A stretch of DNA of 28,557 bases, from contig JADHWK010000032.1 in NCBI GenBank assembly GCA_016783505.1, forward strand, positions 1 through 28,557. The letters are read 5' to 3'. Every line of letters starts with the position of its first letter. Within the stretch, counting starts at the first letter, position 1. Positions 1 to 9,499 of the stretch are shown piece after piece. Source of the DNA: Candidatus Zhuqueibacterota bacterium (GTDB taxonomy: Bacteria > BS750m-G25). The position numbers and the translations under genes are program-made. The notes under the pieces were generated by a model. The model was given only the letters and a program-made list of their open reading frames with translations. It was not told the DNA's origin and did no database searches.

Positions 1-111
1 TTCCATCTCTATCTGAAAGAAATCGAGTGGAGATTCAATCACAGAGATGAAAACTTGCTAAAAATCTTAAGAAAATACTTGAATCAGCCAGTTATCAAAG
101 AACAATTTTAG
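1..111 (+). CDS. IS1595-family transposase, C-terminal end (5' part outside window)
   Basis: Frame 1 is open from the first base to a TAG at 109-111 and gives 36 residues. They contain YLKEIEWRFNHR followed by a short basic tail, which resembles the conserved C-terminus of IS1595/ISXO2-like DDE transposases (HxYLxExxWRFNxR). Only this end is in the window, so an active element cannot be judged. About 30 bases further a PIN-domain gene begins. The sequence TTAGTGGTCAATTACC just after the stop could be the right inverted repeat of the element, but the left end is not available to test it. The family call rests on pattern recognition of a short piece. Confidence 0.6.
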   Translation, partial: FHLYLKEIEWRFNHRDENLLKILRKYLNQPVIKEQF

Positions 112-144
112 TGCAACTTTAGTGGTCAATTACCAAAAATAATA

Positions 145-789
145 ATGCCTAAAGTCAGAAAGATTAAAAAAACTTTGCCAAATAAGCAGAAGAATTATTA
201 TGTAGTTGATGCGTCTTTTCTTGTCAATAAGTATATCCCGACGAAAATAATCAACGATATAAAACATAAAAGAAGAATTGAAGATTGTCAACAATGGTGG
301 AAAGAAATTGATAAACAATTAAGAAGAGGGCGTGCGAGGGTTTACATCCCTTCAGCATGCATTGCGGAATCTTTCAAAGTACTTGCCCAGCTTGCCTTTC
401 ATCCTCAACTTAAACGTTTTAAAAGTACACAGCAGTACAATTATTATAGAAATAAACTTCACAACCAAATATCTCTTCAACCCTTAAAGCTGCGCTCATT
501 TTCGCGCAATATTACATATCATGATATTCCAATGGATAGAGATATAATTCTTTCAATTGATCGCTTTTATGAACTATTTGCAAAATATAAAAAAAGAGTC
601 GGGGTTATAGATTTATCTATCGCTACAACTGCAAAATATTTAATGGATTTTTTTGATATTCCTAAGGATAACTTACATATAGTTACTTTAGATAAATCAT
701 TGAGAGGAGGTATACAAAAATCACAAGATTTACCAAATGCATATGATCCTACATTTGTTAGCCATAGTATTGAAAGGATATTTGAATAA
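145..789 (+). CDS. PIN-domain protein (putative ribonuclease)
   Basis: The 214-residue protein has the acidic layout of a PIN nuclease: D22 in YVVDASFLVN at the end of the first strand, E75 in CIAESFK, D156 in VGVIDLSIA and D183 in IVTLDKSL. PIN domains are Mg2+-dependent RNases, often toxins of VapBC type, but no antitoxin-like small gene is adjacent and at 214 residues it is longer than a typical VapC. A basic N-terminal tail (residues 1-17) may bind nucleic acid. The gene is strongly AT-rich compared with the rest of the window and lacks a clear ribosome binding site. It is directly followed by an attC-like site, so it may be an integron cassette gene. A stand-alone RNase or an orphan toxin are both possible. 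Confidence 0.6.
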   Translation: MPKVRKIKKTLPNKQKNYYVVDASFLVNKYIPTKIINDIKHKRRIEDCQQWWKEIDKQLRRGRARVYIPSACIAESFKVLAQLAFHPQLKRFKSTQQYNYYRNKLHNQISLQPLKLRSFSRNITYHDIPMDRDIILSIDRFYELFAKYKKRVGVIDLSIATTAKYLMDFFDIPKDNLHIVTLDKSLRGGIQKSQDLPNAYDPTFVSHSIERIFE

Positions 790-794
790 AAAAT

Positions 795-862
795 ACCTAA
801 CAACGCACCACAGCGGACTTAAAAAGAGCAGCTTTTTAAGCGACTGAGTTTGAATGTTAGCC
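795..862 (+). other. Putative integron attC recombination site
   Basis: Six bases after the PIN gene stop, ACCTAAC (795-801) resembles an attC R'' core and GTTAGCC (856-862) an R' core. CTAAC and GTTAG are complementary. CAGCGGAC next to the left core resembles an L'' box, and a perfect 9-bp stem (CTTAAAAAG / CTTTTTAAG, 818-826 and 832-840) forms the tip. Length (68 bp) and position immediately 3' of a coding region fit a cassette attC. The R' core deviates from the GTTRRRY consensus at one base, and L''/L' pairing is imperfect. No integrase gene is in the window. Confidence 0.45.
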
Positions 863-891
863 AGTTTCCAGATGGGATAGAATAGAGTCGA

Positions 892-1521
892 ATGTGGGAG
901 CAGATTCCTGAGATCTGGCAGGGGGTACTAGCAAGCATCACGGGCGCTGTCATCATTGCGATAGTAGTGAAGCTATGGAGCCTGAGCTCCGGCCGTGCCC
1001 GGGTGTCACGCGAGCGCCGGCAGTTCGAAATGGAACAACTGCGGGCTCGGCTCTCGTCACCGGACTCGGTTGCACGAGTCGAGGGGTACTTCATTGCTCT
1101 CTTCACGCTCCTCAAGTATCTTTTTTTCGGAAGTATCCTATGGGTCGTAGCTTGGACTCTCAGTGTACTCCCCTGGATTTGGTGCCTCCCCGTAGCAGCA
1201 GTTAGTATGGGTGCCTCCCTCGTAGCTTACTACCTCGGAGTGCGGTGGTTGTACTCCACTCTCCGGTCACCGAGTCCCTCTCATGCCGGCGGGGAGCTTG
1301 AGATACACAGCGCACAATACGGAGTCCCGGGCCACTATGTTGACGTGCTTGAGCAGGTGCTTGCTCAAGTACAGGGCGCACAAGTCGAGGTTTACGCCGG
1401 AAACCATCTCGCGGGAGATCCCTGTCCTAACACAGTGAAGGAGTTAGTCGTCGAATACACATACAGGGATGAGAGGCGAACGCGAAGAGTCACCGAAGGG
1501 CATATCTTGTCTCTGCCATGA
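892..1521 (+). CDS. Membrane protein with DUF3395-like C-terminal domain
   Basis: A 209-residue protein with a hydrophobic N-terminal segment (about 12-28), a basic stretch with heptad-like charge (35-57), and two further membrane spans (about 68-88 and 92-120). The soluble tail (136-209) has AQYGVPGHYVDV, then GNHLAGDPCPN, then KELVVEYTY and a final EGHILSLP. This resembles the DUF3395 domain found at the end of DNAJC11-like proteins and in bacterial proteins, a beta-rich module of unknown function. The gene starts 30 bases after the preceding attC-like site and is followed by a second, weaker one. It is much richer in G+C than the genes on either side, which suggests separate origins. No ribosome binding site is evident. 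Function unknown. Confidence 0.55.
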   Translation: MWEQIPEIWQGVLASITGAVIIAIVVKLWSLSSGRARVSRERRQFEMEQLRARLSSPDSVARVEGYFIALFTLLKYLFFGSILWVVAWTLSVLPWIWCLPVAAVSMGASLVAYYLGVRWLYSTLRSPSPSHAGGELEIHSAQYGVPGHYVDVLEQVLAQVQGAQVEVYAGNHLAGDPCPNTVKELVVEYTYRDERRTRRVTEGHILSLP

Positions 1522-1584
1522 GAATCCGGAACCGGGTAACACAATCATGTAGCCGACGGCGATTTCAAGGAAAGTCGACAGCGT

Positions 1585-1629
1585 GCCAACGCTAGCTCAG
1601 CGCCGCGGCTCAGGCTCTGGCCGTTAGCC
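1585..1629 (+). other. Possible second attC-like site (weak)
   Basis: Downstream of the DUF3395-like gene, GCCAAC (1585-1590) and GTTAGC (1623-1628) pair at five of six positions. Between them lie an imperfect CTCAGC / GCTCAG stem and a GCCGCGGC palindrome. The right core GTTAGCC is identical to that of the site at 856-862, which is the main support. At about 45 bp it is short for an attC, so this is tentative. Confidence 0.25.
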
Positions 1630-1891
1630 CGTTAATAAAGAGGGTGAGGAAGATGATATTGTTGAAATGAGATTTTATCCCTTTCGTTTTAATGGCCCAT
1701 TCATTCATCTTGAGTAGGCCTTTTGTTTTTTTATTATCTTAATTTCCCCAAAAATTGGGATTATACAAATTCATGAATTACGATAATAAAGACTTGATTT
1801 TCTCAAATATAGTTGTTATTTTATATATAAATTACCAAAACATGCTGGAGTGCTGTCTGATAATATGTTAGCTGAAACAGGAGGAAAATAA
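1630..1891 (+). other. AT-rich region without a recognisable gene
   Basis: Very AT-rich sequence with stops in all frames and no RNA gene that I recognise. It contains a possible promoter for the next gene: TTGATT (1794-1799), 17 bases, TATTTT (1817-1822). A GTTAGCT at 1867-1873 lies directly before the next ribosome binding site and repeats the core seen at the attC-like sites, but no partner core was found for it. Confidence 0.35.
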
Positions 1892-5761: not shown

Positions 5762-7720
5762 ATGCGGAACAATGATTCGAAACGGAAAGACAGTTTTCAC
5801 TTTCCGAAAAGGATCTTGTTGCTTATCCCAGTTGTTCTCTTTTTCCAGGTGAAAGCCGGGGATGATCCCCCCGCTGCTATTTCCTATTTCAAAGGGGAAG
5901 GGGTGGGGATGTCGGTTAAGGGGGCGGTGGTTTTGAATCGCTTCGGTTCCTTCGGTAATCCCTCGGATTCTGAAGCTGATTCCATCATCCGGATCATTTT
6001 GCCCGAAGGGACGGAAACATCGAGATTCAATTTTACGATTTACACCCCTATCGGTCAGGCGGTCTATCGTCAAAAGGTCGTTTTGGATGGGGGTTCATCC
6101 TATTTGGAATGGCGGGGGACGACAACCGCCGGTGAAAAACTGGCCAGTGGGGTCTACCTTTTTTCTTTTACTCCGGAAGGGCTTTTCCAAGATTCTCCGG
6201 AAGCTGTCCTTGAAGAGTTTTATTTTCTGGACATTACAGAAGGTCATTTTCCGCTTGATTCCACCTATGCCGGTGATGTTGAATTCGGGGATATGGATAA
6301 TGATGGGGATTTGGATATAGTTATTGGCTATAATGAAACTTCCTATAGTGCAGGCCCTCGTATTTTAATTAATGATGGAACTGGGATCTTTGTGGATGAA
6401 ACCAATGATAGATTTCCTCTTTTAAGTACATTTACCAATGATATTGATTTGGTGGATGTTGATGGTGATGACGATCTGGATATTTATATGGCAAATACGG
6501 GGGTTGTCTTGGAAGAATGTGCGGATATCCTTTTAATTAATGACAGTGGTGGTTATTTTCAGGACGAATCGGATATGAGGCTCCCCCAAATAATGGAAGC
6601 TACTCTGAATGTAGATTTTGCTGATATTGATGGTGATCTGGACCTGGATATAATGTGTGTATTTTTACCATATCCATATGGTAGGGTTCGTGTTTTTATC
6701 AACGAGGGCAATGGAACTTTTGTGGATAGCACCACTGGAAGAGTACCCCTTCTTGAATATTTTCTTTTTAACGTGAATTTCTGTGACATAGATGGAGATG
6801 AGGATTATGATGCGATATTGTCAAGCCTAGGAAATCTTATTTATTTTGATGGACTCGGTAATCCCATTGATACCTTAAGTGGGCAAAATGTTGCCTTAAT
6901 GAATAATAGATTTGGGTATTTTACGGATGAAACTTCGGAGCGCATGCCCTTTGCTGAAGATTGGACTCGGGATATAATTGTGACTGATGTTGATTCTGAT
7001 GGCGATCCGGACTTATATGAATTAAATATTAGTTTCCCTGGGGATTCAGTAGGCATAAATAAGATATTAATAAACGATGGCTCGGGCTATTTTTTTGATG
7101 AGACTGATGGTAGACTTCCCCAGGAATTATTCCTGTGGAACAACGATGCCGATTTTGCTGATTTTGACTTAGACGGGGACCCGGACATTTATATGGTAAA
7201 TGTTCTTCCAGGACAAGAGGCCTACGATGCTCTTTATCTGAACGACAGCAGTGGGTTTTTTGTTGACTCGTCCTCGCTTCTGCCCGGTATTCTGGACTTC
7301 AGTGTCTCGTGTGCGGTGGGGGATATTGACTCCGATACGGATATGGACATTGTCATTTGTAATTCGGGTGGGGTAGTGGGGATCGGCGGGCAGGACAGAC
7401 TATATGGGAATATGCTGTTTTCGTCAGTGATAAGGAACGCTGAAGCAACATATTCTAACAAATTCGAGCTGTTTCAGAACTATCCCAATCCTTTCAACCC
7501 ATCTACAACGATTAAATACTCCTTGCCTGAACCGGGGTGGGTAAGCTTGAAAGTTCATAATATCCTGGGGGAAGAAATAGCCGTTTTGGTTGACAAAAGG
7601 GTGGAAGCAGGGTTTCATAAGGTTGAGTGGGAGGCAACGCACCTCGCTTCCGGGATGTATTTTTACCGTATTCAGGCTGGTGATTTTGTCCAGACCCGGA
7701 AGATGCTTTATCTGAAGTAA
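5762..7720 (+). CDS. Secreted VCBS/FG-GAP repeat protein with T9SS sorting domain
   Basis: A 652-residue protein with an N-terminal signal peptide (hydrophobic ILLLIPVVLFFQVKAG). A FlgD-like Ig domain follows at about 50-135 (WRGTTTAGEKLASGVYLF), then seven FG-GAP/VCBS blades. Each blade carries a DxDxDGD-type calcium loop, for example GDMDNDGDLDI, VDVDGDDDLDIY, ADIDGDLDLDI, TDVDSDGDPDLY and ADFDLDGDPDIY. The last 80 residues are a Por/T9SS C-terminal sorting domain (YPNPFNPSTTIKYSLPEPG, then LASGMYFYRI and a RKMLYLK end). The likely product is a beta-propeller exported across the outer membrane and anchored or released. The ATG at 5762 has GGAGG at 5750-5754; the TTG at 5738 would run into the upstream gene. 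Adhesion, ligand binding or structural roles are all possible. Confidence 0.9.
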   Translation: MRNNDSKRKDSFHFPKRILLLIPVVLFFQVKAGDDPPAAISYFKGEGVGMSVKGAVVLNRFGSFGNPSDSEADSIIRIILPEGTETSRFNFTIYTPIGQAVYRQKVVLDGGSSYLEWRGTTTAGEKLASGVYLFSFTPEGLFQDSPEAVLEEFYFLDITEGHFPLDSTYAGDVEFGDMDNDGDLDIVIGYNETSYSAGPRILINDGTGIFVDETNDRFPLLSTFTNDIDLVDVDGDDDLDIYMANTGVVLEECADILLINDSGGYFQDESDMRLPQIMEATLNVDFADIDGDLDLDIMCVFLPYPYGRVRVFINEGNGTFVDSTTGRVPLLEYFLFNVNFCDIDGDEDYDAILSSLGNLIYFDGLGNPIDTLSGQNVALMNNRFGYFTDETSERMPFAEDWTRDIIVTDVDSDGDPDLYELNISFPGDSVGINKILINDGSGYFFDETDGRLPQELFLWNNDADFADFDLDGDPDIYMVNVLPGQEAYDALYLNDSSGFFVDSSSLLPGILDFSVSCAVGDIDSDTDMDIVICNSGGVVGIGGQDRLYGNMLFSSVIRNAEATYSNKFELFQNYPNPFNPSTTIKYSLPEPGWVSLKVHNILGEEIAVLVDKRVEAGFHKVEWEATHLASGMYFYRIQAGDFVQTRKMLYLK

Positions 7721-7777
7721 ACACTGCGCCCATTTTTGTGTTAAAAATTATGCAGTGCAATGGATCTGCCATTACCA

Positions 7778-7800
7778 GTGCAAAAGAAGAGCTTTTGCAC
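7778..7800 (+). other. Perfect 9-bp hairpin after the VCBS gene
   Basis: GTGCAAAAG (7778-7786) and CTTTTGCAC (7792-7800) with a five-base loop. No T-run follows, so it is not a typical intrinsic terminator; it may stabilise the transcript end. Confidence 0.4.
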
Positions 7801-7868
7801 TCCGGAACAAACAAACCCTTATGACAAGTTGTTACCAAATTAAAATATATTATGGGTGGGGATAAAAG

Positions 7869-8390
7869 ATGAAGATTGGTTTAAAGATATTTGCCCTGAT
7901 CTTCCTTTCTGTTACCCTTACCTCCGGCCAGGAGCTGACTGTCCGGCAAACGACCGTCCTCTTGGAAAATCCCGGGGGCAGAAAGGTGGGGTTGGTTTTG
8001 AAGGGGGCCAAATGTAAGACGAAGGCCTCCCCGGAAGGGGATTGGGTAAAAGTCCAACTGGAAGGCTGGGTCCAACGGTCGGCGCAGGAGGGAGCCGATG
8101 CGAGATATCTGAAAGTTACTGAGGACCAACTGGAGACCGCGGCGATAAACTATCTGGGCAGGAACATTAAAATTGAAAGAATTCTATTGAAGACCCTGGA
8201 GAAGCGGGGCCACCGCCTTCGAATGAAGCTCTCCGATTGCGGGTTCGGGTACCTCCACGAGAGCCGCATTAATGAGGTGCGGGACATCCCCAGGCCCAGT
8301 TCGGTTACCGTCTGGGGGGAGCTGACAGAGGTCACCGCTTATGGATTTTTCTACCTTGACATTGATAGAATTGAGGGGACATCATGGTGA
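7869..8390 (+). CDS. Exported SH3b-like protein of unknown function
   Basis: A 173-residue protein with a signal peptide (MKIGLKIFALIFLSVTLTSGQ, probable cleavage after SG). A bacterial SH3-like region follows at about 22-75 (LTVRQTTVLLENPGGRKVG, then KTKASPEGDWVKVQLEGWVQRS), the pattern of small beta-barrels in periplasmic or wall-binding proteins. The remaining 90 residues, ending in GFFYLDIDRIEGTSW, are not recognised. The last seven bases overlap the start of the next gene, so this protein and the trypsin-like lipoprotein are likely co-translated and act together at the envelope. Confidence 0.65.
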   Translation: MKIGLKIFALIFLSVTLTSGQELTVRQTTVLLENPGGRKVGLVLKGAKCKTKASPEGDWVKVQLEGWVQRSAQEGADARYLKVTEDQLETAAINYLGRNIKIERILLKTLEKRGHRLRMKLSDCGFGYLHESRINEVRDIPRPSSVTVWGELTEVTAYGFFYLDIDRIEGTSW

Positions 8391-9499
8391 GAAAAACGTA
8401 TTCGTTTTGCTTCGTATGGTTATCCTGCTACCAAAAATTCCTATTGGTGGCATTGCTGCTCATTCTGATGGGATGCGCCGCAAGGAAACCCTTGTTGACC
8501 GAAGGATCCCTCACCCTGGCCGACGGCTTTTATGATAACCAACCCCCTGTTACCGAGGGGAAGAGGGATGCCTTGGGGAAGATCGCCCGCTCGGTGGTTA
8601 AGGTTCGGGTGGAGACCCGATATCGGGTAGAAATACCCCAATATGTCCTGAAGGATGATACCTTTATCAAAGACCCCTCCAGTCCCTACGGCTATCGGGT
8701 GAAGATGGAGAAAGGGAAACCCATGGTGGACCGGATACAGGAAACAGTCCAGGTGATCGGCTCTGCCCTGGTAATTACCGAAGAAGGGAACCTAATCGGC
8801 CTGGTTACCTGTAATCACCTGGTTAACCCCGAAGAGAAGATCGAGAACTACTTTCTTGACGAATACGGCAATCCTACCGATATTTTGGCCAGTGTAGCTA
8901 TCAAGCTGAGTTCCTCGGTGGCGGTGGAGATCGAAGGGGTGCCGGGGTTCCAGGGCGAAGTGCTGGCAACCGACAGGGGGCGGGATGTGGCGGTGTTGAA
9001 ATGTCGGCCCCGGTTCACACCGGTATTGATGAACCTTCTTCCGTTCAACTTTCGCTGGGGGAATTCGTCGGAATTGACCTACGGGGATTTTGTGTACGTT
9101 TTCGGCTATCCTAAAGAAGAGAAAAGGCTGGCCCATGGGCTGGTCAGTTCCCATGCCAGCGCTTATGTCTTCGGCGTTGATGCTGCTATCCGCTACGGGT
9201 TTAGCGGAGGGCCGGTGATCGCCATCCGGGATGGGGAACCAAACTACGAGCTGGTGGGCCTGTGCAAGGGGGTGGCGGCCAGCACCGTCAGGGTGATCGC
9301 CCCCCACGAGGGAAAGGCGACCCTGGTTCCCAAAACGCTCAGTTTAGAAGATATTTATATCAAGGAATTAAAAACTATTGACTATGGTCTGACCTACTGC
9401 GTAGGGGTGAACGGTATAAAAAAATTTCTGCTGCGCAATAAGGATTTACTGAGACAAAACGGCCTGGGTCTGCCGGACTTTGGGACTTCGACGGACTGA
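8384..9499 (+). CDS. Trypsin-like serine protease lipoprotein
   Basis: A 371-residue protein with a long signal sequence ending in the lipobox LILMGC (lipidated Cys31). A chymotrypsin-fold (S1/HtrA-like) domain follows with the triad visible in order: H145 in VTCNHLV, D201 in DRGRDVAVLKC and S274 in GFSGGPV. HtrA/DegP proteins usually carry PDZ domains after the protease; here the C-terminal 95 residues show none that I recognise. An insertion of about 40 residues between H145 and D201 is longer than usual. It would be anchored in a membrane and cleave periplasmic or extracellular proteins. The start has GAGGGGA upstream and overlaps the SH3b-like gene by seven bases. Confidence 0.8.
   Translation: MVRKTYSFCFVWLSCYQKFLLVALLLILMGCAARKPLLTEGSLTLADGFYDNQPPVTEGKRDALGKIARSVVKVRVETRYRVEIPQYVLKDDTFIKDPSSPYGYRVKMEKGKPMVDRIQETVQVIGSALVITEEGNLIGLVTCNHLVNPEEKIENYFLDEYGNPTDILASVAIKLSSSVAVEIEGVPGFQGEVLATDRGRDVAVLKCRPRFTPVLMNLLPFNFRWGNSSELTYGDFVYVFGYPKEEKRLAHGLVSSHASAYVFGVDAAIRYGFSGGPVIAIRDGEPNYELVGLCKGVAASTVRVIAPHEGKATLVPKTLSLEDIYIKELKTIDYGLTYCVGVNGIKKFLLRNKDLLRQNGLGLPDFGTSTD

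Follow-up and report, generated by a model that had tools for sequence, protein, structure and literature searches.

A CALIN with two attC sites in a genome of Candidatus Zhuqueibacterota, very probably the remaining end of an integron cassette array

The window, i.e. the whole analysed stretch of 28,557 bases, is contig C31 of a metagenome-assembled genome (MAG) of 2.51 Mb in 89 contigs. Near its start two genes of the same strand are each followed by an attC site, and we regard this locus with high confidence as a CALIN with two attC sites, namely what is left of an integron cassette array at its downstream end. The term CALIN denotes a cluster of attC sites lacking an integron-integrase (IntegronFinder, PMC9024848), for which published work requires two or more attC sites within less than 4 kb of each other (PMC9024848, PMC9668308). 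Here the sites at 795–862 and 1534–1629 lie 0.7 kb apart on the forward strand. The type of element is known, its host lineage is little known, and a family search within the host phylum returned no second genome but only this one.

Cassettes and attC sites of the window

The contig starts at window position 1 inside an IS1595-type element. Positions 1–133 (forward strand) represent the right end of an insertion sequence (IS) of this family, with the last 36 transposase codons plus stop (codons at 1–108), a terminal repeat at 111–133 and the contig break. The encoded peptide fragment (P0001) shows a 60% match to a transposase annotated as IS1595 family. Since the window begins inside the IS, the upstream part of the array is out of view. 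The same 23-bp IS end is located also at the tips of contigs C1, C81, C82 and C84. At least five contigs are broken at this IS1595-family end and two of them carry cassette arrays.

Only 11 bp separate the IS end from the ATG of the first cassette gene (145–789, forward strand), whereas the start of this cassette is lost upstream of the IS. The gene encodes a PIN-like protein of 214 amino acids with the acidic residues D22, E75, D156 and D183, spaced in a PIN-like manner. Its relatives are a protein from an Aminicenantes MAG (81% identical over the first 96 residues) and one from bacterium PL23a_bin.76 (49%); D22 and E75 are conserved in three relatives, D156 and D183 in two. The protein gave no match to the Pfam PIN models and nothing notable in the PDB, and among defence candidates of PADLOC it matched PDC-M07B weakly (E 9e-6). 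With both cassette proteins nothing notable was found in NCBIfam and no match among plasmids and viral contigs. The gene of the 49% relative is followed by GCCTAACAACC...GTTATC, a stretch that reads like an attC site with the hairpin deleted, and the genome of PL23a_bin.76 contains 11 attC matches elsewhere. That this genome shares the PIN-like protein with two further MAGs, of which one likewise contains many attC sites, speaks for cassette exchange among distant bacteria.

Crossover in integrons follows the established cleavage rule G^TT. Accordingly, the second cassette comprises 767 bp (857–1623, forward strand) between two G^TTAGCC crossover points. Its gene (892–1521, forward strand) encodes a protein of 209 amino acids with two to three hydrophobic segments and a tail that weakly resembles DnaJ-C11/DUF3395. 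The initial annotation had called this gene DUF3395-like; the resemblance is present but faint, with 22.2 bits against PF11875, below the cut-off of 27.1. No relatives of this protein were found in the collections searched, including plasmids and viral contigs. The very different composition ascribed to the two genes is correct, with 31% GC in the first and 56.5% in the second reading frame compared to 49.5% in the remaining window. Between the second attC site and the tRNA-Phe gene (2402–2476) the region 1630–2400 is AT-rich (34% GC) and encodes a two-helix membrane protein of 117 amino acids. As no attC follows this gene, the region may be a final cassette that lacks a site, or simply chromosome. 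In the Rfam scan tRNA-Phe was the sole match and no attC family was matched.

The site of the first cassette, attC1 (795–862, forward strand), shows R'' ACCTAAC, an L''/L' stem with an unpaired A and R' GTTAGCC. It reads ACCTAAC ... CAGCGG(A)CTTAAAAAG / CTTTTTAAGCGACTG ... GTTAGCC with an apical stem of 9 bp, and this 68-bp site had been delineated exactly in the initial annotation. In attC2 (1534–1629, forward strand), the site of the second cassette, R'' GGGTAAC is followed by L'' GTAGCCG(A)CGGCG, which pairs with CGCCGCGGCTC, and by R' GTTAGCC. If the halves are written with the 3' half reverse-complemented, plasmid attC sites and both candidates of the window share one register: GTCTAACAATTCGTTCAAGCCGACCGC / ATCTAACGCCGGAGTTAAGCCGCCGC in the class 1 aadA2 site, ACCTAACAACGCACCACAGCGGACTTAAAAAG / GGCTAACATTCAAACTCAGTCGCTTAAAAAG in attC1 and GGGTAACACAATCATGTAGCCGACGGCG / GGCTAACGGCCAGAGCCTGAGCCGCGGCG in attC2. 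In the 5' half of all three, the A of xGAC is unpaired and corresponds to the extrahelical base of attC sites, and the distance between R'' and xGAC is 13. The corresponding distance from R' is 13 in aadA2 and attC1 and 15 in attC2, the 3' spacer of which is two bases above the usual length.

Compared with the core consensus (R'' RYYYAAC, R' GTTRRRY), ACCTAAC fits, and GGGTAAC as well as GTTAGCC are off by one or two positions, a degree of variation that known sites show as well. The departure of the R' cores from GTTRRRY, raised as a doubt before, is thus real; it is not disqualifying because an OXA-10-type cassette of the training set has the same terminal GTTAGCC. Both sites possess an imperfect L''/L' stem with an extrahelical base and show structural conservation. 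As single-stranded DNA attC1 folds better than its shuffles (z −3.3 on one strand and −3.6 on the other), and attC2 reaches z −2.4 on the forward strand. The motif GTTAGCC alone is uninformative, with 207 copies in the genome, fewer than those of the reversed control; one copy (757–763) falls within the first gene. attC1 and attC2 are genuine attC sites that frame cassettes.

Statistical support and distribution of attC sites in the genome

Three models were used for detection. Covariance model R1 is based on 13 plasmid attC sites only, and for R2 these were supplemented by 11 sites located on other contigs of the genome under study. The same 24 sites, none of them from the window, served for training a log-odds model with explicit freedom of spacers and loops. 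A MAFFT alignment of full sites was dropped; since it misplaced short sites, the two halves of each site were aligned in register with N in place of the loops. A simple stem scanner was also abandoned as too noisy: it ranked attC2 first yet level with noise.

In the log-odds model attC1 obtains 31.0 bits and attC2 31.9 bits, and they are the two best places of the window on either strand, each directly behind a gene of the same strand. The next best place reaches 19.0 bits, and the maximum of shuffled sequences, part of them retaining the local GC mosaic, is 19.7 bits over 10.4 Mb. Left-out true sites score between 27 and 58 bits with one exception at 6.9. R1 gave 17.0 bits for attC2 and 12.2 bits for attC1; with R2 the best place of the window is attC1 (14.8 bits), followed by the inner stem of attC2, at E-values of 0.2 to 1.6. 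These covariance scores (12 to 17 bits) are modest and inconspicuous in a scan of the whole genome, probably because variable loops are modelled as one stretch of fixed length. The initial annotation had seen only the 3' core of the second site, which it called weak and did not place. A model scan of the contig had been proposed there as a check, together with a search for further sites, and both were positive: attC models match 795–862, and besides attC2 there are sites on nine other contigs.

Altogether the three models reveal no fewer than 26 attC sites, distributed over ten contigs including the window, with a single orientation per contig. Together with the two gene-then-attC units on one strand this supports the earlier interpretation as cassette array. 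The plasmid-trained model R1 found sites on C39 (three), C17, C44, C72, C53, C73 (two) and C2, those on all these contigs except C2 scoring 20 to 48 bits, and R2 added C77, C37 and more. Over 24 aligned sites the covariation is 0.437 vs. 0.159 in shuffled ones and collapses when the partner is slid by one base, i.e. the sites keep their helices through compensatory change. The 6-kb contig C39 (1–6085) is nearly completely a cassette array, with four clear attC sites and remnants at both ends, and several of its cassettes encode small lipoprotein-like proteins. Several sites on C72, C77 and C17 are 126 to 137 bases long with long, partly similar loops (usual attC sites have 55 to 96 bases).

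In a cassette inserted as a circle, pairing of R'' with the cassette's own 5' end, i.e. the R' of the preceding site, is expected to be better than pairing with the R' next in the array. In ten neighbouring pairs the outer four positions agree with the previous R' in 33 of 40 cases and with the in-array R' in 20 of 40; random pairing reaches 33 with P 5e-5. Genome-wide, the R'' of each site thus matches the start of its own cassette, which is the signature of circular insertion. The sites of C77 obey the same rule (GTTAGGT then ACCTAAC, GTTATGC then GCATAAC). Inside the window this test is silent because both R' cores are GTTAGCC. For the first cassette, whose own start is lost, the rule predicts the start TTAGGT, and this word is found shortly before the ATG of the 81% identical Aminicenantes relative, at a locus where it occurs in 0.4% of the 30-base windows. 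This agreement is suggestive only since the preceding base is A and the attC model found no attC site in that MAG.

In a survey of 59 genomes across bacteria the attC model matched at E 0.02 or better in 13, and the genome under study was the richest with 11 matches. The remark of the initial annotation that integrons are rare outside a few phyla is therefore too strong; published surveys likewise list numerous phyla with integrons or CALINs (PMC9024848, PMC9668308).

Integrase remnant and a second type of array

Neither attI nor promoter nor integrase was found on the contig of the window. That no integrase is visible here had been stated correctly, but this reflects the start of the contig plus decay of the gene elsewhere. 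Because the contig breaks at the IS, the missing integrase is no evidence against a former neighbouring one. A scan of the genome, which is 59.9% complete at an estimated contamination of 1.8%, with TIGR02249 gave no match above the cut-off and no intact intI. The only intI recovered is a fragment on C44 (2860–5560), where an integron-integrase gene with its middle deleted, a partial second copy and two attI-like sites are found, intI and cassettes having the same direction. Of the TIGR02249 profile, the first 55 matched positions lie directly next to the last 43, in a different frame, and the N-terminal piece is best matched by integron integrase models (TIGR02249), far ahead of XerA. One other tyrosine recombinase of the genome that was examined is XerC/D-like by sequence. 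Both attI-like copies lie downstream of the remnant and are identical up to ...CTTAGGTT / ATGGATATACTTAGGTT (GGTT), whereupon one copy continues with GGGC and the other with ATGC, as would be expected for different cassettes inserted at one crossover point. Among the cargo of C44 an SfiI-type restriction enzyme and its DNA methyltransferase form one cassette with its own attC (7127–8916); other cassettes encode a deaminase/RecG-like protein and a DUF2130 protein. The cassettes are followed by an apparent chromosomal adenylosuccinate lyase gene, named by reading its sequence.

A further cassette-like array is located on the reverse strand of C82 (12320–6500), where a truncated IntI/XerA-like recombinase (139 amino acids) precedes the sites. 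Here cores of 10 bp match exactly from site to site (GTTGTGTGCC/GGCACACAAC, GTTATCTGCC/GGCAGATAAC, GTTAGGCGAC/GTCGCCTAAC), close to a perfect or near-perfect 10-bp stem without extrahelical base. These sites were not detected by R1 and R2, and the array terminates near a tRNA-Ala-like gene. A search for this type of site in 98 genomes yielded chance matches only (e.g., within a coding gene in L070) and no clear relatives in the 97 genomes other than this one, and the exact pattern matched a coding region in viral contigs. It is conceivable but rather doubtful that this genome harbours two cassette-capture systems side by side, one with canonical attC sites (window, C39, C44 and others) and one of the C82 type. 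The sites of the latter would need a different mode of recognition, given their exact 10-bp cores and perfect stem without extrahelical base.

Origin of the array and its significance

Beyond the attC architecture and the cassette signature described above, known integron biology suggests how the locus may have arisen. An integron integrase would have taken up each gene in the form of a circular cassette and integrated the circles in one orientation, acting at the R' core (G^TT) on the folded single attC strand. We infer capture by the integrase of the C44 type or a related one and subsequent cut-off by the IS. The IS1595-type element probably arrived later in front of the PIN-like gene; as far as the assembly shows, it cuts this gene off from the rest of the array as well as from a possible attI, promoter or intI. 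The cassettes could still be mobile with the help of an integrase supplied in trans.

In a variant of this explanation, the array would have become detached from a complete and functional integron with its intI and attI in that 40% of the genome which is missing or was left unassembled. This variant has a substantial probability, short of an even chance. The incompleteness of the genome, the contig break at a repeated IS and the spread of attC sites over ten contigs, which suggests a large array split by assembly as described before (PMC9024848), all speak for it. Since the sole integron-integrase found in this genome is broken, with its middle deleted, a relic is somewhat more likely. An error of assembly or binning, with the first 1.7 kb from another organism or the attC contigs as contaminants, is improbable. 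It would agree with the nature of the genome as MAG, with the sharp change in composition and with the difficulty of assembling and binning integron contigs, but contamination is low, the IS end is common to four more contigs of the bin and C44 unites attC sites, intI remnant and housekeeping-type genes on one contig.

Chance resemblance, i.e. two inverted repeats that happen to end with AAC...GTT, is hardly credible and, at the level of sequence statistics, already refuted. GTTAGCC is a common 7-mer here and the covariance E-values in the window are poor, but chance is no serious explanation because both sites exceed 30 bits whereas no shuffle reaches 20 bits, and both sit directly behind same-strand genes. 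Equally far-fetched is the assumption that the hairpins are transcription terminators or IS-derived repeats. They do sit behind stop codons; however, the conserved R boxes, spacer lengths and unpaired base are in register with known attC sites including those of plasmids, which already contradicts this reading, no T run follows the stem and Rfam finds the tRNA alone.

CALINs are a common outcome in fragmented genomes. The window resembles them in its two attC sites of the same orientation, in the order gene then attC and in a contig without intI. It differs since the upstream end of its array is lost at the IS, which hides the true size, and since no other genome of the host lineage was among those searched. 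With class 1 plasmid cassettes (aadA2, dfrA12, blaOXA-10 type) it shares the R''/L''/L'/R' layout, the 13-base spacing from R'' to xGAC and the position of the unpaired A, but instead of resistance genes it carries those for a PIN-like protein and for a membrane protein of uncharacterised function. As in the chromosomal integrons of Treponema (PMC3607928), the intI remnant of C44 points towards the cassettes. T. phagedenis retains attC sites after loss of intI (PMC3607928), whereas here intI persists as a fragment with deleted middle and the attI-like site is present in two copies. Integrons and CALINs of archaeal MAGs (PMC9668308) show a similar distribution of many attC sites over many contigs, mostly without intI; in contrast, the present genome is bacterial and its sites are identified from the sequence.

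The finding adds a lineage without relatives among the genomes searched to the bearers of integron cassettes, with a rich set of attC sites even in a genome that is 60% complete. It presents an integrase caught in decay while cassettes persist, and the cargo, a PIN-like protein and an SfiI-type restriction-modification system, fits the role of cassettes as carriers of defence genes.
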